Assembly (NCBI GenBank): GCA_013359235.1
Contig: JABWCE010000009.1
Span: 72,796-110,727 of the forward strand
Source: Bacteroidota bacterium
GTDB taxonomy: Bacteria; Bacteroidota; Bacteroidia; NS11-12g; UBA9320
Reading direction: 5' to 3'
Length of the DNA stretch: 37,932 bases
Shown: positions 3,274 through 12,740 of the stretch, in pieces
Layout: each line of letters opens with the position of its first letter
Position numbering within the stretch: the first letter of the stretch is position 1
Position numbers and translations under genes: made by a program
Notes under the pieces: model-generated
Database searches by the model: none
What the model saw: only the letters and a program-made list of their open reading frames with translations
What the model was told of the DNA's origin: nothing

Positions 3274-3281
3274 TACTTTTG
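3274..3281 (+). promoter_or_regulatory. Weak -7 box at the start of the first BNR gene
   Basis: TACTTTTG matches TAnnTTTG but overlaps the first possible TTG start (3279). If it is the promoter, transcription would begin near 3288 and translation would have to start at the in-frame TTG at 3303. No -33 TTG lies at the usual distance. Confidence 0.25.
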
Positions 3282-6218
3282 GCTTTGAAAAAAATTGTAC
3301 AATTGAAAAGAGTTTTATTTACTTTAATTTTAATTAAAATTACATGTTTGGCTGTGTCTCAGCCATGGAACAAATATCTATATTCTTCAAATCCTGATTT
3401 TTTTGAAATTCAAAATGCTTTTAAAAAATATTGGGAAGATAAAGAACCTCAAAAAGGCGAAGGTTATAAGCAGTTCAAAAGGTGGGAATGGTTTTGGGAG
3501 CCCAGAGTGGGCTTAAATGGCAAATTTCCCGATTCTGAAATTAATCAAAATGAATATCTGAAATTTTTAAATAAAAGTAAGTTGTACAAAGCTGCACCTG
3601 TAAAAACTAATTGGACTTTTATGGGACCATCAACTACACCGGGCGGTTATAACGGTTTAGGAAGATTAAACTGCATAGCATTTCACCCAACTGATACTTC
3701 TATTATGTGGGTAGGTTCGCCTTCGGGTGGTATTTGGAAAACAACTGATATGGGCAAAACATGGATTTCTCTTTCAGATTTTAATACTGTTTTGGGAGTG
3801 AGCAGTATAGCCGTAAACCCAAATTATCCTGATAGTATTTTTATTGCTACCGGTGATGGAGATAGAGGCAGTTTGTGGGGTATGACAGGTGGACAATCGG
3901 GAGATAACAAAAGCATAGGTGTTTTGCTTACTACTGATGGTGGAAAAACGTGGAAAAAAACAGGAATGAACTGGAATATTTGGGATGTGAAACTCATTAG
4001 CAAAATAATAATGAATCCTAAAAATACCAGCCATTTGCTTATTGCAGCTTCTGACGGTATTTATCAAACCAAAGATGCTGGCAACACGTGGACAAAAACA
4101 CAAGCAGGTTATTTTATGGATATAAATTTTTGCCCGACTGATTTTTCAATAATTTATGCTACAACTTATGAATATTACGGAAATGCCAAAATTTACCGTA
4201 GTATAAATGGTGGAAATTCTTTTAACATTGTTTTTTCAATTGGTCTGGCTTCGCGAATTGCAATTGCCACTACTTTAGCCAATCCTGCCAAAGTTCAATT
4301 ACTTGTTTCTGATAAAACCAATGGTAAATTTGGTGGTATTTATCAATCGCTTGATACAGGCAAAAATTTTATTATAAAATATGATACTTCAGAACGAAAT
4401 ATTTTGAGCAGCAATTGGAATGGAAGCGGCAATAAAGGGCAGGGATGGTACGATTTGGCTTTTTGCATTTCACCTTTTAACGAAAATTTGGTTTGGGTTG
4501 GTGGAGTAAACAATTGGTTTTCTGATAATGGTTCCGACTCGTTTCACATAAATACTATGTGGACTGCCAATATCAAGACAAATCCTACAAAAATTCAAAC
4601 AACACATGCCGATAAACATTTTATTGCTTACAATATACTTAGCGGTAATCTTTTTGATTGCAACGATGGTGGAGTTTATATAAGTCGCAACAATGGAAAA
4701 TCATGGACAGACCTAAGCAATGGACTAGGTATTACTCAGTTTTACCGAATGTCAATTTCGCAAAGCGATACAAATATGATTTTGGCGGGTGCTCAAGACA
4801 ATGGAACTAAGCTAAGGACTAACCAAACTTGGAACGAATCTACCGGAGGTGATGGTATGCACTGCATAATAGACCCGGCTGATAATAATATTTACTATAC
4901 GGGAATTCAATATGGTAAAATTAATAAAATTGAGAACGGAGAAACAAAAGTAATTTCTGATAATATAAGCGGCAAACCTAAAGGAACCTGGGTAACTCCC
5001 TACATTATTGACCCCAACGATAATCAGGTAATAATTGCAGGATATAAACAAATATATAAATCAACCGACAGAGGCGAAACATGGGGCAAAATTTGCGACA
5101 GCCTGTGGAAACCTAATTATGTACAAAATATAGCTGTAGCCGAAGGAAATTCTGATATTATTTATGCTTCTGATTATTATAAAATATACAAAACAAGCGA
5201 TGGCGGCAATAAATGGACATTGATGATTTCTACTTCTACACCTATTTCATCAATAAAAGTTCACCCATATAACCCTGATATTTTATATTACACAAATTCA
5301 TCTTATGTTTCAGGCTCAAAAGTTTACAGATTAAACACTTTAGTTTCGGGAGCAGCGAGAAATTCTAACATTTCATTCAATTTGCCAAACATTGCTATTA
5401 ATTGTATTGAATACGATAAAAATTTAAAAGAAGGTTTGTATATAGGAACTGATATAGGAATTTTTTATAAAGATACAGCAATGGCAGAATGGGAATTATT
5501 AAACGCCAATTTGCCAAATGTAGTAGTTACCGACCTAAAAATAAATTATAAAAAACGCTTGTTGTATGTTGCAACCTTTGGCAGAGGCATCTGGAAGAGC
5601 AATATAAAAATTAATGAAAAATTAATTGCACCTTTTGTTACATCAATTGAGCCGCCTGACAATGCAACCAAAATTCATCCTAAATCACAATTGATTATTT
5701 ACTTTAACGAAAATATTAAAAAAGGAGCAGGGCAGATTTCAATTTTTGAGTCAAATGTATTAAAACAAAAGATAGATATTACAAGCGATTCGGTAAAAAT
5801 AGAAGGAAACCGAGCAGTAATTACCCCTTTGGAATTTACTCTCGGAAAACAAGTTTATGTAACATTTCAAAAAGGTGCATTTAAAGACTTGGATGACAAT
5901 GACCAAAAGGGAATTTCAAGCAATACTGAATGGAATTTTACAATAAATACAAGCACAAAAGTCAGCCAAATTTTGCTCGAAAATTCAATTTTAATTTACC
6001 CTAATCCCACAGAAAACAAATTGAATATTATAAACAATTCAGGAATTGAAATTGAGAAGATGAGTTTGTTGTGCATTAATAGCTATGAATTAAAAACTTT
6101 GCAAAATCTAAAAAACAATAGTTTTGAGCTAAACTTAAATAACTACCCTGCCGGATTATATTTTATAAAAATCAAATTACATGATACTGTAATTATAAAA
6201 AAAATTGTTAAAATCTGA
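3279..6218 (+). CDS. Secreted BNR/VPS10-type repeat protein with Ig-like domain and T9SS sorting tail
   Basis: The 979-residue protein begins with a signal peptide ending near LAVSQ. From about residue 120 to 775 it carries repeated beta-propeller motifs of the BNR/sortilin type (GGIWKTTDMGKTW, STDRGETW, TSDGGNKW), closing with ATFGRGIWKS. An SbsD-like Ig domain (Big_5; NATKIHPKSQLIIYFNENI) follows at about 787-887. The tail has YPNPTENKLNI and ends IIKKIVKI, a T9SS type A sorting domain, so it is probably exported through T9SS to the cell surface or medium. There is no in-frame ATG before the signal peptide: candidate starts are TTG at 3279, 3285 or 3303, and the last gives the most typical start, (M)KRVLFTLILI. 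Substrate is unknown; related propellers include GH74-like and peptidase-associated proteins. It is the first of three closely spaced genes. Confidence 0.9.
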   Translation: MALKKIVQLKRVLFTLILIKITCLAVSQPWNKYLYSSNPDFFEIQNAFKKYWEDKEPQKGEGYKQFKRWEWFWEPRVGLNGKFPDSEINQNEYLKFLNKSKLYKAAPVKTNWTFMGPSTTPGGYNGLGRLNCIAFHPTDTSIMWVGSPSGGIWKTTDMGKTWISLSDFNTVLGVSSIAVNPNYPDSIFIATGDGDRGSLWGMTGGQSGDNKSIGVLLTTDGGKTWKKTGMNWNIWDVKLISKIIMNPKNTSHLLIAASDGIYQTKDAGNTWTKTQAGYFMDINFCPTDFSIIYATTYEYYGNAKIYRSINGGNSFNIVFSIGLASRIAIATTLANPAKVQLLVSDKTNGKFGGIYQSLDTGKNFIIKYDTSERNILSSNWNGSGNKGQGWYDLAFCISPFNENLVWVGGVNNWFSDNGSDSFHINTMWTANIKTNPTKIQTTHADKHFIAYNILSGNLFDCNDGGVYISRNNGKSWTDLSNGLGITQFYRMSISQSDTNMILAGAQDNGTKLRTNQTWNESTGGDGMHCIIDPADNNIYYTGIQYGKINKIENGETKVISDNISGKPKGTWVTPYIIDPNDNQVIIAGYKQIYKSTDRGETWGKICDSLWKPNYVQNIAVAEGNSDIIYASDYYKIYKTSDGGNKWTLMISTSTPISSIKVHPYNPDILYYTNSSYVSGSKVYRLNTLVSGAARNSNISFNLPNIAINCIEYDKNLKEGLYIGTDIGIFYKDTAMAEWELLNANLPNVVVTDLKINYKKRLLYVATFGRGIWKSNIKINEKLIAPFVTSIEPPDNATKIHPKSQLIIYFNENIKKGAGQISIFESNVLKQKIDITSDSVKIEGNRAVITPLEFTLGKQVYVTFQKGAFKDLDDNDQKGISSNTEWNFTINTSTKVSQILLENSILIYPNPTENKLNIINNSGIEIEKMSLLCINSYELKTLQNLKNNSFELNLNNYPAGLYFIKIKLHDTVIIKKIVKI

Positions 6219-6220
6219 TT

Positions 6221-8737
6221 ATGAAATTAAAAATTATACTAACTGCTTTTGTCGTTGCAATTTTATTTTTTAAAGGTTTTTCTCAACCTCTTACATTTGA
6301 ATCGCGTGGAATTGGTGGGGGCGGAGCATTGTTCTCACCTTCGGTAAATCCCAAAAACAACGATGAAATTTACTTGTCGTGTGATATGAGTGAAATTTTT
6401 CATACAAGCAATAAAGGTGAAAGTTGGCAAATACTAAATTTTAAGAAAATACAGGGTGGGCATAACAGCAAAATTAGTTTTACCAACAACGATAATATTA
6501 TGTATTGCATTGATTATACATCTGTGAATGGAGTAGATTATTCGCGTCCGGTAAAAAGTACCGATGGCGGTTTAACATGGAATTTGTTACCCGGAAACCC
6601 TTATCCAAACGACGAAGCTTTTAATATTACTGCCGATTACGATAATCCAAACAATGTGATTTTGGGTTTTTACGGCGAAATATTTTTTAGCAACAATGGA
6701 GGAAGTACTTTTAAGAAAATTTATACATGCAAAAGCAATGATGAAGGAAATCATATTGCAGGAACTTTTTTTGATGCCGATAAAATATACATAGGCTTGA
6801 ATGATGGTTTACTTGTAAGTACTGACGCTGGAGCTAATTTTAATTTAATGACAACAACAGGCATGCCTTCAACAGAAAAAATGTTGTCATTTTCAGGAGC
6901 AAAAGAAGGTTCAAATGTGAGGTTTGTTTGCTTAACTTTAACAAATGTATGGGCGGGTATTCAACACGCCTTTGAATATTCAGCAGGAAATAGTGCTGCA
7001 ATGCAGGGCATTTATGTAATGGACAATGCCGATGGAACATGGAAATCAAAACTTTCAGGTATAAATAAATCAACAGATTTTCCTGTATTTACAGGAATGT
7101 CGCAAAATAATATTTCGATAATTTACGTTTCGGGAGGAAGTTCGTCAGGGGCACCAATAGTTATGAAATCTAGCGATGGAGGCAATAATTGGAATCATGT
7201 TTTTAAAACCTCAAATAATCAAAATATTTTTACTGGATGGAGCGGCTACAACGGCGATAGACAATGGAGTTATGGCGAATGTCCTTTTGGGTTTTGTGTT
7301 TCGCCAAATAATTCAAATATGTTGATTTTTACTGATTTTGGTTTTGCTCATGCAAGCTATGATGGCGGCACCAATTGGAAACAAATGTATGTTGATAATA
7401 AATACCAAAATCCGCAAAATTCATCAACTCCCAAAGGTAAGTCATATAAAGGTATAGGTCTTGAAAACACTACCAATTGGAACATACTATGGATTGACTC
7501 AACAAATATGCTTTCGTCATTTTCGGATATAAATGGTGTAATGAGCAATGATAAAGGAGTAACCTGGAAATTTATCCCAAATCTTACTCAAAATTCGGTT
7601 TATCACATTGTGAAAAGCAATACAGGAACTTTGTACGCTGCAACATCAAATATTCATGATATTTACCAAAGTACACGACTTTCCGATGCTATACTTGATG
7701 CAGGAACCGGAGCTATTTATATAAGTAATGACAAAGCTACGAGCTTTACCCTTATGCACAATTTTAATCATCCCGTAGTGTGGCTTGCATTAGATCCAAC
7801 AAATTCAAAAAGAATGTATGCAAGTGTAATTCACAGTACAGCAGGTGGTATTTTTGTTTCGAACGATATTGATAAAGGAGCAGCAAGTACTTGGTCAAAA
7901 CTATCAAACCCACCGCGTACCGAAGGTCATCCGTTTGTAATAATTGTATTGAAAAATGGCGATTTGGTTGTGAGCTATTCAGGTAGAAGAGGAACACTTT
8001 TTACAGCTTCGTCAGGCGTTTTTTATAGCAAAAATCAAGGTGCAAGCTGGACTGACGTGAGTGATAATAATATGAAATATTGGACAAAAGATGTAGTAAT
8101 TGACCCTTCAGATACTTCGCAAAGTACATGGTATGCTGCAGTTTTTAGCGGATGGGGAAGTTCAGTGCCTCCAGGCACAGGTGGTTTGTACCGCACAATA
8201 AACAAAGGTCAAAACTGGACAAAAATTTCAAATTCTTCGTCTTCATACCGTGTAAATTCTTGTACAGTAAATCCGCAAAACAATGATGAATTGTATTACA
8301 CAACAGAAACAGACGGACTTTGGTTTACAAAAAACGCAACATCTCCAATGCCAGAATTTAGTTTGGTTTCCGGATATCCGTTTCGTCATCCTGTAAGGGT
8401 AAATTTTAATCCATATAAAAATTCCGAAATTTGGGTTTCGAGCTTTGGTGGCGGCATGATGGTGGGAAACAACAATGGCGGAAATAATTCTTTTAATAAA
8501 ATTAAAAATTTAAAGAATCTGAAAATTTATCCAAACCCGGCTGAGTATTTTATACAGCTAAATATGACAGGTACGTTTGATTATGAAATTTATAATTTAC
8601 ATGGTTCTTTAGTTGCCTTTGGAAAAAATTCAGGCTCTGATGAATATATAAAAGTTGATACACTACAAAAAGGTATTTATACAATTAAAGTAAAAAGTGA
8701 AGAAAGAAATTACTTTAGCAAATTTTTGAAAATATAA
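6221..8737 (+). CDS. Secreted BNR-repeat (GH74/VPS10-like) protein with T9SS sorting tail
   Basis: The start lies 2 bases after the previous stop, so the two genes are almost certainly co-transcribed. The 838-residue protein has a signal peptide ending at about FSQ. A long run of propeller blades follows, with motifs such as HTSNKGESWQ, STDGGLTWN, SSDGGNNWN and TINKGQNWT. The opening GIGGGGALFSPSVNPKNNDE resembles the start of GH74-type xyloglucanase propellers, but I see no diagnostic catalytic aspartates and do not assign enzyme activity. Residues from about 766 form a T9SS type A tail (KIYPNPAEYF, ending FSKFLKI). It lacks the Ig-like domain of its upstream neighbour. It is likely surface-attached or released. 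Confidence 0.9.
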   Translation: MKLKIILTAFVVAILFFKGFSQPLTFESRGIGGGGALFSPSVNPKNNDEIYLSCDMSEIFHTSNKGESWQILNFKKIQGGHNSKISFTNNDNIMYCIDYTSVNGVDYSRPVKSTDGGLTWNLLPGNPYPNDEAFNITADYDNPNNVILGFYGEIFFSNNGGSTFKKIYTCKSNDEGNHIAGTFFDADKIYIGLNDGLLVSTDAGANFNLMTTTGMPSTEKMLSFSGAKEGSNVRFVCLTLTNVWAGIQHAFEYSAGNSAAMQGIYVMDNADGTWKSKLSGINKSTDFPVFTGMSQNNISIIYVSGGSSSGAPIVMKSSDGGNNWNHVFKTSNNQNIFTGWSGYNGDRQWSYGECPFGFCVSPNNSNMLIFTDFGFAHASYDGGTNWKQMYVDNKYQNPQNSSTPKGKSYKGIGLENTTNWNILWIDSTNMLSSFSDINGVMSNDKGVTWKFIPNLTQNSVYHIVKSNTGTLYAATSNIHDIYQSTRLSDAILDAGTGAIYISNDKATSFTLMHNFNHPVVWLALDPTNSKRMYASVIHSTAGGIFVSNDIDKGAASTWSKLSNPPRTEGHPFVIIVLKNGDLVVSYSGRRGTLFTASSGVFYSKNQGASWTDVSDNNMKYWTKDVVIDPSDTSQSTWYAAVFSGWGSSVPPGTGGLYRTINKGQNWTKISNSSSSYRVNSCTVNPQNNDELYYTTETDGLWFTKNATSPMPEFSLVSGYPFRHPVRVNFNPYKNSEIWVSSFGGGMMVGNNNGGNNSFNKIKNLKNLKIYPNPAEYFIQLNMTGTFDYEIYNLHGSLVAFGKNSGSDEYIKVDTLQKGIYTIKVKSEERNYFSKFLKI

Positions 8738-8744
8738 AAAACAA

Positions 8745-9677
8745 ATGAAAAAAATTCTATTCAGTTTGATTTTTGCGATATTAATAAAATATGCTTCGGC
8801 TCAGGGTTGTAGCGATGCTGGATTATGTACTGCCGGTGGACTGAAACCTATATTTTTTACTAATGATTCATTAAAAAGCAGTCTGAATTTTTCACTAAAT
8901 TTTTCAATTGGCGAAAATGGCACAAATATTATTACACCACAGTTTGAACCATTAGTAAAAGTGAATGAAAATAGTTTTATTCAGTTTAAAATTCCATATT
9001 TGATTATTAATGGAAATTTAGGTTCGTCAAAAGGAATAAGTGACGTTTCAATAAATTATAACTACAAATTTGATTCGCTTATAAAATATAAACTTTATTT
9101 AACCTGTGGTGTTAAAATTGCATCAGGCTCTGCTTCGCTTAAAACAGATGGAATATGCCTACCAATGACCTATCAAACAAGTATGGGTACTACTGATTTT
9201 TTGGGAGGTTTAAGTCTTGAAATAGCTAAAGGTTTGTCAGTTTCACTCGGTTTACAGGTTCCAATGTTTAATATTAATCAAAACAAATTTGATTCTGCTG
9301 CATTTCTGTACTTTAAAAATGAAAAGAAAATAAATGATAATCAAAACTATTTTATATCTTCAAAATTAAAGCGGAAAAGTGATGTGATGATGAGAATTGA
9401 CAAGACATTTGCCTTTAAAAAAAACAACATTTCAATAGGAATACTTCCCATTTATCATCTTGGAAAAGATAAAGTGAATACCACTTCGCTTAATAATGTA
9501 TTATTAAGTGGCTCACAAGGATTAACTCTGAATTTTAATACTTCGTTAAATTATAAAATATCAGATAAATCGGCAGTAAATTTTATCTTGGCCTTTCCTT
9601 TAATTACTCGAAAATCAAGACCTGACGGGCTGGGACGAAGCATAGTTACAGGTATTAGTTACAAATATGTATTGTAA
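8745..9677 (+). CDS. Outer-membrane beta-barrel (porin-like) protein, QGCSDAGLCT family
   Basis: The gene starts 7 bases after the preceding stop. The 310-residue product has a clear signal peptide (cleavage probably after ASA, leaving QGCSDAGLCT with two cysteines near the mature N-terminus). The rest is amphipathic strands typical of a 10-14 stranded barrel (LSLEIAKGLSVSLGLQVP; SIGILPIYHLGKDK) and the chain ends ...TGISYKYVL, with a penultimate valine after an aromatic. I associate the QGCSDAG(L/F)CT opening with Bacteroidota barrel proteins of unknown role. The gene sits between the secreted propeller genes and the heme-lipoprotein cluster; the 83-base gap to the latter leaves open which transcript it serves. 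Function is unproven. Confidence 0.8.
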   Translation: MKKILFSLIFAILIKYASAQGCSDAGLCTAGGLKPIFFTNDSLKSSLNFSLNFSIGENGTNIITPQFEPLVKVNENSFIQFKIPYLIINGNLGSSKGISDVSINYNYKFDSLIKYKLYLTCGVKIASGSASLKTDGICLPMTYQTSMGTTDFLGGLSLEIAKGLSVSLGLQVPMFNINQNKFDSAAFLYFKNEKKINDNQNYFISSKLKRKSDVMMRIDKTFAFKKNNISIGILPIYHLGKDKVNTTSLNNVLLSGSQGLTLNFNTSLNYKISDKSAVNFILAFPLITRKSRPDGLGRSIVTGISYKYVL

Positions 9678-9760
9678 AAATAGTTTCATTTTTGAATTTA
9701 GAAATCTTTTTATGAAACATTTTGAAATAAAAAGCAGTTTATAATTTTTAGTTTTACAAA

Positions 9761-10462
9761 ATGAAAAAAGCATTAACCTTTTTTTCAATATTTATAGTTT
9801 TTGCTTTGATAATACATTCATGCAAGCATGAGGTGCCTTTCTTTTTGTTTCAAAATTATGATGTTGATACAACTAAGTTTCCATGCAATGCAGATACAGT
9901 TTATTATCAAAACCAAATACAACCAATTTTTAATACATATTGTATGGGAACCGAGTGCCATAGTGGTACAGACCCCAAAGAAAATCTTGATTTGTCCTCT
10001 TATTCAGGTGCAATCAATAGTGGAAAAATTGTACCCTTCAACTCATCAAAATCTAAAATTTATAAAGCAATAATTGAAACCGACCCCGATGATAAAATGC
10101 CTCCGGATATAAATTTATCCCAAGATAAAATAGATTTGATAAAAAAATGGATAAACCAAGGAGCAATTAATAATTATTGTGATGATACGCAAAACCCTTG
10201 CGATACTTCGAACATTACATTTTCTTATACTATTAAAAAAATAATTACAGATTATTGCCTTGGTTGTCATACAAGTTCATTTTCAGTTTCACTCGACACA
10301 TATACCGAAATTAAAAATGCAGTGCAAATCCGCAATTTATGGAAATCGGTTAACCACGATACAGGAGCATTAATAATGCCGCCTGATCCAGCACCTAAAT
10401 TGAGTAATTGCAATATTAGAAAAATAAAAATATGGATTGATTCCGGTATGCCTGATAATTAG
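9761..10462 (+). CDS. Lipoprotein with two cytochrome-c-like heme motifs (Planctomycete cytochrome type)
   Basis: A signal sequence ends in a lipobox with the lipidated cysteine at residue 21 (IIHSC). Two repeated modules follow. The first has a Cx4CH motif (CMGTECH, residues 61-67) and then a DKMPP element whose Met113 could be an axial ligand. The second has a standard CLGCH (166-170) followed by IMPPDP. Each module opens with a cysteine plus D-T/N (PCNADTVYY, PCDTSNITF). The pattern fits the PSCyt1-like family, so it probably binds heme c covalently in the periplasm or at the outer membrane. It is 5 bases upstream of a one-module paralogue. A role in extracytoplasmic electron transfer is inferred from the heme motifs. 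Confidence 0.88.
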   Translation: MKKALTFFSIFIVFALIIHSCKHEVPFFLFQNYDVDTTKFPCNADTVYYQNQIQPIFNTYCMGTECHSGTDPKENLDLSSYSGAINSGKIVPFNSSKSKIYKAIIETDPDDKMPPDINLSQDKIDLIKKWINQGAINNYCDDTQNPCDTSNITFSYTIKKIITDYCLGCHTSSFSVSLDTYTEIKNAVQIRNLWKSVNHDTGALIMPPDPAPKLSNCNIRKIKIWIDSGMPDN

Positions 10463-10467
10463 ATAAA

Positions 10468-10848
10468 ATGAAATTTAAACAAATATTATTTTTGGGATTG
10501 GTTATTTTATTTTCTTCGTGTTATTATGACGTAGAGGAAGAACTATATCCGACAAATATTTCAAAATGTGATACAACAAATACAAAACTTTCAACCAAAA
10601 TTAAACCCATATTAATTAAAAATTGTTACGTGTGCCATTCGGTCTCCAATTCAATAAATTTGGGAGGAAACATTGATTTGGAAACTTATACAGAATTAAA
10701 AAAATACGTAGATAATTCTAAATTGTTGATGTCAATAAAACATCAGTCGGGTGTATGGTCTATGCCCAAGGGTACAAGCTACAAAATACCTGCATGTGAT
10801 ATAAATAAAATTGAATACTGGATAAAAATTGGAGCGAAAAATGATTAA
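10468..10848 (+). CDS. Small lipoprotein with one cytochrome-c-like heme motif
   Basis: The 126-residue protein has a lipobox cysteine at residue 18 (LFSSCYYD) followed by an acidic stretch. It has a single CYVCH heme motif (residues 53-57) after the same module opening seen in its neighbour (KCDTTNTKL, cysteine 34). A WSMPKG segment could supply an axial Met, and a C-terminal CDINKIEYWIKIGA block matches the end of the upstream protein (CNIRKIKIWIDSGM). It is therefore a one-module version of the 9761 product, probably arising by duplication. The gene overlaps the next one by 8 bases, which suggests translational coupling. Confidence 0.88.
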   Translation: MKFKQILFLGLVILFSSCYYDVEEELYPTNISKCDTTNTKLSTKIKPILIKNCYVCHSVSNSINLGGNIDLETYTELKKYVDNSKLLMSIKHQSGVWSMPKGTSYKIPACDINKIEYWIKIGAKND

Positions 10849-11260
10849 AAAAATAATATACATATTCCTGTTTTTTATAATAGCCGCAATAGCTACGGGC
10901 ATTTATTTATGGAACAAGCCACATAAAAATATCGAAACTACTAAAGAAGATTTTGTGCTTTCGGCAGTAGATTTTTATAAAGAATATTCAGCCGACGAAA
11001 CTACCGCAAACAAAAAATATTTGAATAAAGTAATAATAGTTTCGGGCAAAATAGCCGAAATACAATTGGAAAACCCTGATGAACCCTCAATAGCAATTGA
11101 AACAGGTACTGATGAAAGCACAATTAACTGTGGGTTTAAAAAAGAGTTTTTAAATGACTTAAAAGCTTTGAAAACCGGCGAAATAGTAAAAATTAAAGGA
11201 AAATGTGACGGCTTTAGTATGTTTGGCATAGTTTTTACACAGTGTAATCTTGAAAAATAA
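10841..11260 (+). CDS. OB-fold protein, tRNA_anti-like family, membrane-anchored
   Basis: The ATG at 10841 overlaps the end of the preceding gene and gives a 139-residue protein; a TTG at 10829 would only add four residues. The N-terminus is one hydrophobic helix (IIYIFLFFIIAAIATGIYLW) followed by NKPH. The rest fits the OB-fold 'tRNA_anti-like' family: FYKEYSADETTANKKYLNK, then VIIVSGKIAEI and GEIVKIKGKCDG. Despite the family name there is no reason to expect tRNA binding, because the OB domain would lie outside the cytoplasm. Such proteins recur in Bacteroidota beside YceI-like genes (from memory). The role here is unknown. Confidence 0.82.
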   Translation: MIKKIIYIFLFFIIAAIATGIYLWNKPHKNIETTKEDFVLSAVDFYKEYSADETTANKKYLNKVIIVSGKIAEIQLENPDEPSIAIETGTDESTINCGFKKEFLNDLKALKTGEIVKIKGKCDGFSMFGIVFTQCNLEK

Positions 11261-11272
11261 AATAAAATAAAT

Positions 11273-11836
11273 ATGAAATTTAAAACAACAGCAATCATCA
11301 TTCTTACAGTAATTTTATCATCGTTTACCTATAAAAGCGAACCTGGAAAATACATTGCAAAAAATGGTAAAGTAAACTTTTTTTCACATACTGATTTGGA
11401 AGATATATCAGCCGACAACAATAAAGTATCGAGTATTTTAGATTCAAAAACAGGCAAACTTGCAATAGAACTTCTAATTAAATCATTTCATTTTAAAAAG
11501 GCTTTGATGGAAGAGCATTTTAATGAAAATTATATGGAATCTGATAAATTTCCAAAATCAAAATTTGATGGTAAAATAGAAAATATTAACGATGTTGATT
11601 TTTCTAAAAATGGAACTTACAACATAAATATTTCAGGTAATTTAACAATAAAAGACAAAACCAATAAAGTAAGCACTAAAGGTACTTTAAAAGTTGATGG
11701 ACAAAAACTTAATGGTAAGGCGGTTTTCAAAATTCTTCTCTCTGATTACGATATAAAAATTCCGGCAATGGTTAAAGAAAAAATATCAAACGAAATTGAA
11801 ATTTCCGTTGATATTGAGTATCAGGCTATGAAATAA
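11273..11836 (+). CDS. YceI-like lipocalin-fold protein
   Basis: The 187-residue protein has a short N-terminal hydrophobic signal (TTAIIILTVILSSFTY). The YceI-type pattern follows: GKYIAKNGKVNFFSHTDLED, then a middle block with HFKKALMEEHFNENYMESDKFP, SKFDGKI, and a late GTLKVDGQKLNGKAVFKI. YceI domains bind isoprenoid-type lipids in a lipocalin-like barrel and are periplasmic or secreted; several are linked to respiratory quinone traffic in bacteria (family knowledge). It lies 12 bases after the OB-fold gene and 4 bases before the DUF5777 gene, within the heme-lipoprotein cluster. A quinone-related role is only inferred. Confidence 0.85.
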   Translation: MKFKTTAIIILTVILSSFTYKSEPGKYIAKNGKVNFFSHTDLEDISADNNKVSSILDSKTGKLAIELLIKSFHFKKALMEEHFNENYMESDKFPKSKFDGKIENINDVDFSKNGTYNINISGNLTIKDKTNKVSTKGTLKVDGQKLNGKAVFKILLSDYDIKIPAMVKEKISNEIEISVDIEYQAMK

Positions 11837-11840
11837 TAAG

Positions 11841-12740
11841 GTGAAAAGATTAATTGTTCTGATAACTTTTGTCGGTTTGTTTTTTGGTGCAAAACCTGTA
11901 TTAGCACAAACTGACACATTAAATTTATTTAGTTTGATGAACAATGATGAAGAAATCAAATACACTACAGCCACTTTCAAAACTACCCGTATAATAAATG
12001 GTCACAGTATTGAAAATCAAGCTATGGGTGTAATGGATTTTAGAATCAATCATCGTTTTGGTGATATAAACGGAGGTGCTTACGAGTGGTTTGGGCTTGA
12101 CCAGTCTAATGTAAAATTATGCTTAGATTACAGCATTATTGATCGTTTGATGGTTGGAATTGGGAGAACAAACGTAAATAAAACAGTAGATGGCTATTTA
12201 AAATTTAAAATTTTGCGACAAAGTACAGGTAAAAGAAATGTACCTGTAACAATGAGCTACGTTGCGGTAAGCGATGTAAATACATTGAAATGGCAAGAAC
12301 CATCGCGTAAAAATTATTTTACATCAAGGCTTACATTTACACATCAAATATTAATTGGACGAAAATTTTCTAAATCTACTTCATTGCAAATTTCACCCAC
12401 ATTGGTTCACCGCAACCTTGTAGAACTTAAAAAATATAAAAATGATGTGTTTACCATAGGTTTTGGCGGTAGGCAAAAACTAAACAGCAGAATCTCTGTA
12501 AATGCCGAATATTACTACGTTTTTCCAAATCAAATTGCAAACGAGATGAAAAACAGTTTGTGTATTGGTTTTGATATTGAAACAGGCGGTCATGTATTTC
12601 AATTGCATTTTACAAATTCGCGAGGGATGACTGAATCGCAATTTATTACACAAACAACAGGCAATTGGCTAAAGGGTGATATACGATTTGGGTTTAATAT
12701 TTCAAGAGTTTTTACTGTTAAAGAAAGAAAATTAAAATAA
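11841..12740 (+). CDS. DUF5777-family outer-membrane beta-barrel protein
   Basis: Translation begins at a GTG (no ATG is available ahead of the signal peptide), 4 bases after the YceI-like stop. The 299-residue protein has a signal peptide ending PVLAQ. It carries the family pattern MGVMDFRINHRFGDINGGAY, WFGLDQSNVKLCLDYSIIDR and VGIGRTNVNKTVDGYLKFKI, then barrel strands (LQISPTLVHRNLV, ISVNAEYYYVFPN) and FQLHFTNSRGMTE. This is a widespread Bacteroidota barrel family without a defined function, often found with cytochromes and YceI proteins (from memory). It is the last gene of the cluster; a hairpin overlaps the final base of its stop codon. Confidence 0.88.
   Translation: MKRLIVLITFVGLFFGAKPVLAQTDTLNLFSLMNNDEEIKYTTATFKTTRIINGHSIENQAMGVMDFRINHRFGDINGGAYEWFGLDQSNVKLCLDYSIIDRLMVGIGRTNVNKTVDGYLKFKILRQSTGKRNVPVTMSYVAVSDVNTLKWQEPSRKNYFTSRLTFTHQILIGRKFSKSTSLQISPTLVHRNLVELKKYKNDVFTIGFGGRQKLNSRISVNAEYYYVFPNQIANEMKNSLCIGFDIETGGHVFQLHFTNSRGMTESQFITQTTGNWLKGDIRFGFNISRVFTVKERKLK

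Follow-up and report, generated by a model that had tools for sequence, protein, structure and literature searches.

What could be the function of a run of genes in which two outer-membrane barrels, two heme lipoproteins, an OB-fold protein and a YceI protein are placed next to each other? The question was raised by a stretch of 37,932 nucleotides (hereafter the window) from contig C3 of a 2.65 Mb genome of the class Bacteroidia. An initial annotation had described a tight five-gene cluster preceded by a further barrel gene, and its account of the genes, families, gaps and motifs was confirmed throughout by open reading frames (ORFs), sequence and Pfam. It had also proposed an uncharacterised extracytoplasmic redox system of Bacteroidota, a proposal that was found to be well supported by the conserved gene order and the conserved heme ligand residues. 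On balance we favour the view that the core, consisting of the two cytochrome lipoproteins, the OB-fold protein, the YceI protein and the DUF5777 barrel, is an outer-membrane redox module that moves electrons at the outer membrane. The features of the locus, with the evidence for each, are as follows.

8745..9677, + strand: accessory outer-membrane barrel, 310 amino acids (ORF, AlphaFold2, genus-level linkage)
9678..9760, + strand: spacer of 83 bases from accessory barrel to core cluster (sequence; weak inverted repeats only)
9761..10462, + strand: diheme c-type cytochrome lipoprotein, PSCyt1 (ORF, Pfam, heme motifs)
10468..10848, + strand: monoheme c-type cytochrome lipoprotein (ORF, heme motif, profile)
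10841..11260, + strand: OB-fold protein with N-terminal membrane anchor, tRNA_anti-like, PF12869 (ORF, Pfam)
11273..11836, + strand: exported YceI protein with signal peptide, PF04264 (ORF, Pfam)
11841..12740, + strand: DUF5777 outer-membrane barrel, PF19089, GTG start (ORF, Pfam, AlphaFold2)

In gene order from the accessory barrel, the genes are separated by 83 bases, 5 bases, an overlap of 8 bases, 12 bases and 4 bases. The OB-fold gene was taken to start at the ATG at 10841; the first start given by the ORF tool is the TTG at 10829, with which the overlap would be 20 bases. Promoter and terminator signals around the 83-base spacer were not above those of shuffled sequence.

Conservation of the DUF5777 neighbourhood

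Whole-genome searches of 296 sampled Bacteroidota genomes found DUF5777 in 115, and a scan of close-relative contigs with the DUF5777 protein found it in two relatives only. Genes at a total of 138 DUF5777 loci (including L003, L004 and the window) were assigned by means of profiles built up from the proteins of the window. Neighbouring genes were called mechanically (longest ORF, overlaps removed), and some small genes may be missed; the iterated DOMON profile, which caught tails of the type IX secretion system (T9SS) in 50 matches, was left out of the counts. Within three genes and on the same strand, YceI was found at 107 of the 138 loci, a cytochrome at 102, the OB-fold protein at 30 and a Rieske protein at 11. 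YceI was directly upstream of DUF5777 at less than 60 bp in 77 of the 138, and among genes six or more positions away from DUF5777 its background was 6 in 848. A cytochrome or Rieske protein stood beside DUF5777 in 23 of the 24 families having DUF5777, and YceI together with either of these was present in 48 genera, spread over 19 families. Among relatives from the family and order of the window's genome, viewed with 1.5 kb flanks, 24 of 29 loci had the order OB-YceI-DUF5777, and the cytochrome was visible just upstream in 21. A COX1 homolog was found in all 115 DUF5777 genomes, but also in 285 of the 296 overall, which is too common to inform.

These computed linkages show that the neighbourhood association is well above chance and that the gene order is more than a local coincidence. 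The comparison of gene order across Bacteroidota, suggested in the initial annotation as a check, was passed, with YceI at 107/138 loci against its background of 6/848 genes and a cytochrome at 102/138. In the open-access literature searched (most subscription journals lie outside that search), DUF5777 is named in no paper, and no account of this module was found for YceI and cytochromes in Bacteroidetes.

Heme carriers and their probable quinone links

The diheme lipoprotein matched PSCyt1 (PF07635) in Pfam with an E value of 9.6e-13. It has a heme motif of the less common C-X4-CH type (CMGTECH) and a CXXCH motif (CLGCH), both with Met-Pro and Trp downstream, and its lipobox, IHSC, is non-canonical; congeners have IQSC, INSC or VPSC at the same site. 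The monoheme lipoprotein (CYVCH ... SMPKG ... W; N-terminus CYYDVEEELYP) fell under the Pfam cut-off for PSCyt1 (17.5 bits vs 22). By profile it is akin to the diheme protein, with heme and Met ligands retained, and the locus has three heme motifs in total over the two lipoproteins. All three window domains have the heme motif and downstream Met by which class I c-type cytochromes are recognised. Among 139 heme domains near DUF5777 (80 CXXCH and 59 CX4CH), Met, Pro and Trp were found downstream of the heme motif in 97%, 99% and 99%, respectively. With the ligand residues computed to be conserved over 139 domains, the CxxCH-type lipoproteins of the initial annotation are borne out, and the heme domains of the module look genuine; their residue pattern is the one that class I cytochromes with His/Met ligands should have.

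The OB-fold protein gave a tRNA_anti-like match at E 1.2e-20, the sole PF12869 match in the genome; it is an optional part of the module and, as a guess, may serve assembly or tethering. The YceI protein (11273-11836) matched PF04264 at 61.9 bits compared to a cut-off of 23.7 (E 1.2e-16). The second YceI of the genome (G000:C28:86814-87314, L001) is without a signal peptide and lies beside a regulator of Crp-like look. PDB sequence searches with the diheme lipoprotein, the OB-fold protein, the YceI protein and the DUF5777 profile returned no credible relative.

Two positions in the DUF5777 loci appeared to be exchangeable. The cytochrome was absent from 10 of 11 Rieske loci and present in 108 of 127 others (Fisher p 3.9e-7), and YceI was found in 0 of 6 NrfD loci compared to 114 of 132 others (Fisher p 1.6e-5), both by tests that ignore shared ancestry. 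NrfD quinone modules of the DsrOP/QrcCD type replace YceI beside DUF5777-cytochrome in five families, and are absent from the window's locus. YceI was also missing from six loci with a 345-amino-acid diheme cytochrome (two families). In the simplest reading, the protein in the cytochrome/Rieske slot would carry one electron at a time, and the YceI/NrfD slot would connect it to quinone; the computed replacements fit a chain from quinol to one-electron carrier to outer-membrane barrel. A second flavour of DUF5777 locus, with a cytochrome, DUF5777 and NrfD and without YceI, was seen at L092, L095, L099, L100, L106 and L113. In places these loci add EB_dh, a second cytochrome c or a DsrO-like Fe-S protein (the last accompanies NrfD in L095), and several genomes have both flavours.

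Some YceI proteins of other bacteria bind ubiquinone-8 or polyisoprenoids (PMC8981238, PMC9113575). It is plausible that the window YceI is a quinone carrier, because of the published YceI structures and because YceI is swapped for the NrfD quinone module. To this extent the lipid- or quinone-handling YceI of the initial annotation is a plausible reading of this particular protein. A comparable pairing occurs in Cbp2D/Cbp2E of Cellvibrio japonicus (PMC8981238, PMC12542752), where a quinone-binding YceI-like domain (X158) and c-type cytochrome domains act in extracytoplasmic electron transfer; unlike the module described here, these are single multidomain proteins with carbohydrate-binding modules and without an outer-membrane barrel.

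The same parts could also form a counterpart of BcnA/LcoA of Burkholderia cenocepacia, where an exported YceI-family lipocalin is genetically linked to an envelope heme electron carrier and lipid peroxidation rises on loss of bcnA or the linked lcoA (PMC9113575). Quinol held by YceI would then quench lipid peroxyl radicals, the barrel would be an anchor or lipid-access site, and the cytochrome or Rieske protein would serve as the partner that re-reduces the YceI quinol; the presence of YceI in most DUF5777 loci agrees with this. However, the partner in B. cenocepacia is an inner-membrane cytochrome b561, a family absent by Pfam from the cluster proteins, whereas the partners here are c-type cytochrome or Rieske lipoproteins and an outer-membrane barrel. 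Moreover, YceI is not the core, because loci without YceI retain the cytochrome and DUF5777, together with NrfD or other cytochromes. The expected direction of electrons also runs the other way, since high-potential His/Met c-type cytochromes usually accept electrons from quinones rather than reduce them. We regard such a counterpart as unlikely.

The DUF5777 barrel, its cytochrome fusions and the accessory barrel

The DUF5777 protein matched its family over profile positions 1-247 of 247 at 324 bits (cut-off 23.1, E 6.3e-97). Its AlphaFold2 model, built with 101 homologs, has 12 strands and a predicted local distance difference test score (pLDDT) of 93.9, and the N-terminal segment 40-63 is ordered. 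H71, H251 and R289 were conserved in 99%, 99% and 98%, respectively, of an alignment whose mean identity is 24%, and they mark a candidate site. Genomes of a sister family within the order (G330, G335, G338, G341, G345, G349, G351 and G352) have DUF5777 genes as tandem pairs.

The predicted count of 12 strands makes the barrel too narrow to hold a cytochrome domain. A classical porin-cytochrome conduit, with the hemes inside the barrel, would account for an operon that combines an outer-membrane barrel with c-type cytochrome lipoproteins, and for their fusion in some genomes; in MtrCAB, too, a barrel of the outer membrane cooperates with c-type cytochromes. The barrels of MtrB-type conduits have 26 strands and are paired with decahemes, whereas the barrel here has 12 strands, below the 20 or more of such a conduit, and its cytochromes are mono- and diheme only. 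An MtrCAB-type conduit was rejected on the 12-strand barrels (DUF5777; approximately 12 strands for the barrel at 8745) and the three hemes in the locus, and a conduit with internal hemes is very improbable. The initial annotation had a barrel housing the heme lipoproteins; the housing is not supported, as both barrels are predicted to be 12-stranded, while the association of cytochrome and barrel is backed by in-frame fusions.

In genome G030, one ORF of 421 amino acids combines a signal region and an entire DUF5777 domain with a cytochrome domain (CAQAGCH ... MPLTG ... LLEAWV). The same fused architecture was found in G373 and G406, at 53-55% identity, and the fusions are in frame in three genera of two families. 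The fused loci are:

L170:8075-9337, - strand: fused cytochrome-DUF5777 locus
L266: fused cytochrome-DUF5777 locus
L267: fused cytochrome-DUF5777 locus

As natural in-frame fusions, these genes are strong evidence, and the best available, that the cytochrome and the barrel function together. In the fused proteins the cytochrome domain precedes the barrel. The N-terminus of the barrel would be expected to enter from the periplasm, yet 12-strand autotransporters thread the N-terminus through the lumen.

The solved folds nearest to DUF5777 are FapF (Z 17.8), KdgM and NanC, and such 12-strand channel folds raise the alternative of external small-substrate oxidation or uptake, in which DUF5777 would be the substrate channel and the cytochromes would pass electrons from periplasmic or surface oxidation to the respiratory chain. 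Possible redox partners are added at some loci as EB_dh-domain, diheme (345 amino acids), DOMON-T9SS or Temptin-T9SS proteins. However, no conserved enzyme accompanies the core, whose near-universal parts are the carrier and the barrel only, and fold likeness is uninformative on substrate. FapF, KdgM, NanC and the COG4313 channel, the nearest solved 12-strand folds for both barrels, share approximately 5-16% identity with them, and for none of these is a role as redox partner known. This alternative, too, seems improbable to us. T9SS-exported DOMON proteins lie beside DUF5777 at L049, L051, L149 and L162, and T9SS-exported Temptin-domain proteins with CXXCH at L125, L129, L130 and L132; both are possible surface redox partners.

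The protein encoded at 8745 (mature N-terminus QGCSDAGLC) had no Pfam family match. It was modelled with about 12 strands (AlphaFold2, pLDDT 86.3) and was closest to the COG4313 channel 4rl8 (Z 23.2, root-mean-square deviation 2.7, 238 aligned, 10% identity), in a near tie with FapF (5o65, Z 22.9); its closest folds have approximately 10-15% identity. Of the 296 genomes, 34 encode homologs. Five of six congeners have one upstream of the gene for the diheme cytochrome, in one case with an extra ORF between, and congener G296 has the module and no barrel of this type. Outside the genus, homologs sit away from DUF5777. Membership in the core was rejected because the barrel is missing in G296 and unlinked beyond the genus; it is an accessory, genus-level neighbour. 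The initial annotation had left its membership open because of the 83-base gap. Outside the genus, in the family of such barrels (QGCSDAGFC), a DM13 'electron transfer' lipoprotein is often adjacent (L182, L184, L185, L186 and L194), and at L191 the barrel is beside a YHS protein; barrel and DM13 or YHS partner are possibly a second uncharacterised redox pair. Directly upstream of the accessory barrel, the window encodes two large proteins (3279-8737), the second of which (838 amino acids, Sortilin/BNR repeats, T9SS tail) stops 7 bases before it. Genes of similar length precede the module in L003, but not in several other congeners (L225-L227).

Proposed electron flow and significance of the module

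For the redox module that we favour, we infer the following order. Electrons would leave the inner-membrane quinone pool on the exported YceI or, at other loci, would be taken by an NrfD/Fe-S quinone module in its place. They would then pass to a small one-electron carrier, the c-type cytochrome lipoprotein or elsewhere a Rieske lipoprotein, which may dock at the mouth of the DUF5777 barrel and exchange electrons with a terminal substrate or partner reached through or at the barrel.

Several observations weigh against this proposal. A small number of hemes lying outside a 12-strand barrel is not enough in itself to bridge the membrane. Approximately 20 of the 138 DUF5777 loci are without a cytochrome or Rieske protein nearby, some of them cut by contig ends; the Fisher tests on slot exchange carry the ancestry effect noted above, and the three fused genes, given their identity, may come from one event. 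The classical surface export signal, C-X-K-(D/E)2 or SDDDD (PMC5080379), was not found on the cytochromes, and acidic residues past the lipid cysteine were modestly enriched (50 of 101 cytochromes compared to 56 of 169 controls).

We rate the module as a redox system of the outer membrane that pairs a barrel with cytochromes and is made of unusual parts. A bolder and quite tentative version, which we would sooner doubt than accept, makes DUF5777 a new minimal outer-membrane electron-transfer complex, in which a 12-strand barrel has a monoheme or Rieske carrier docked on it or fused to it, H71, H251 and R289 form a cofactor or substrate site, and the supply of electrons through the periplasm comes from a lipocalin carrying quinone and not from multiheme cytochromes.

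Annotation would miss such a module because it has few hemes. Its parts are all small and testable in culturable flavobacteria. If the proposal is true, a major phylum has a widespread redox system with a conserved barrel capable of fusion to a cytochrome and with exchangeable electron donors, and exported YceI proteins, whose function is debated, would gain a concrete set of partners.

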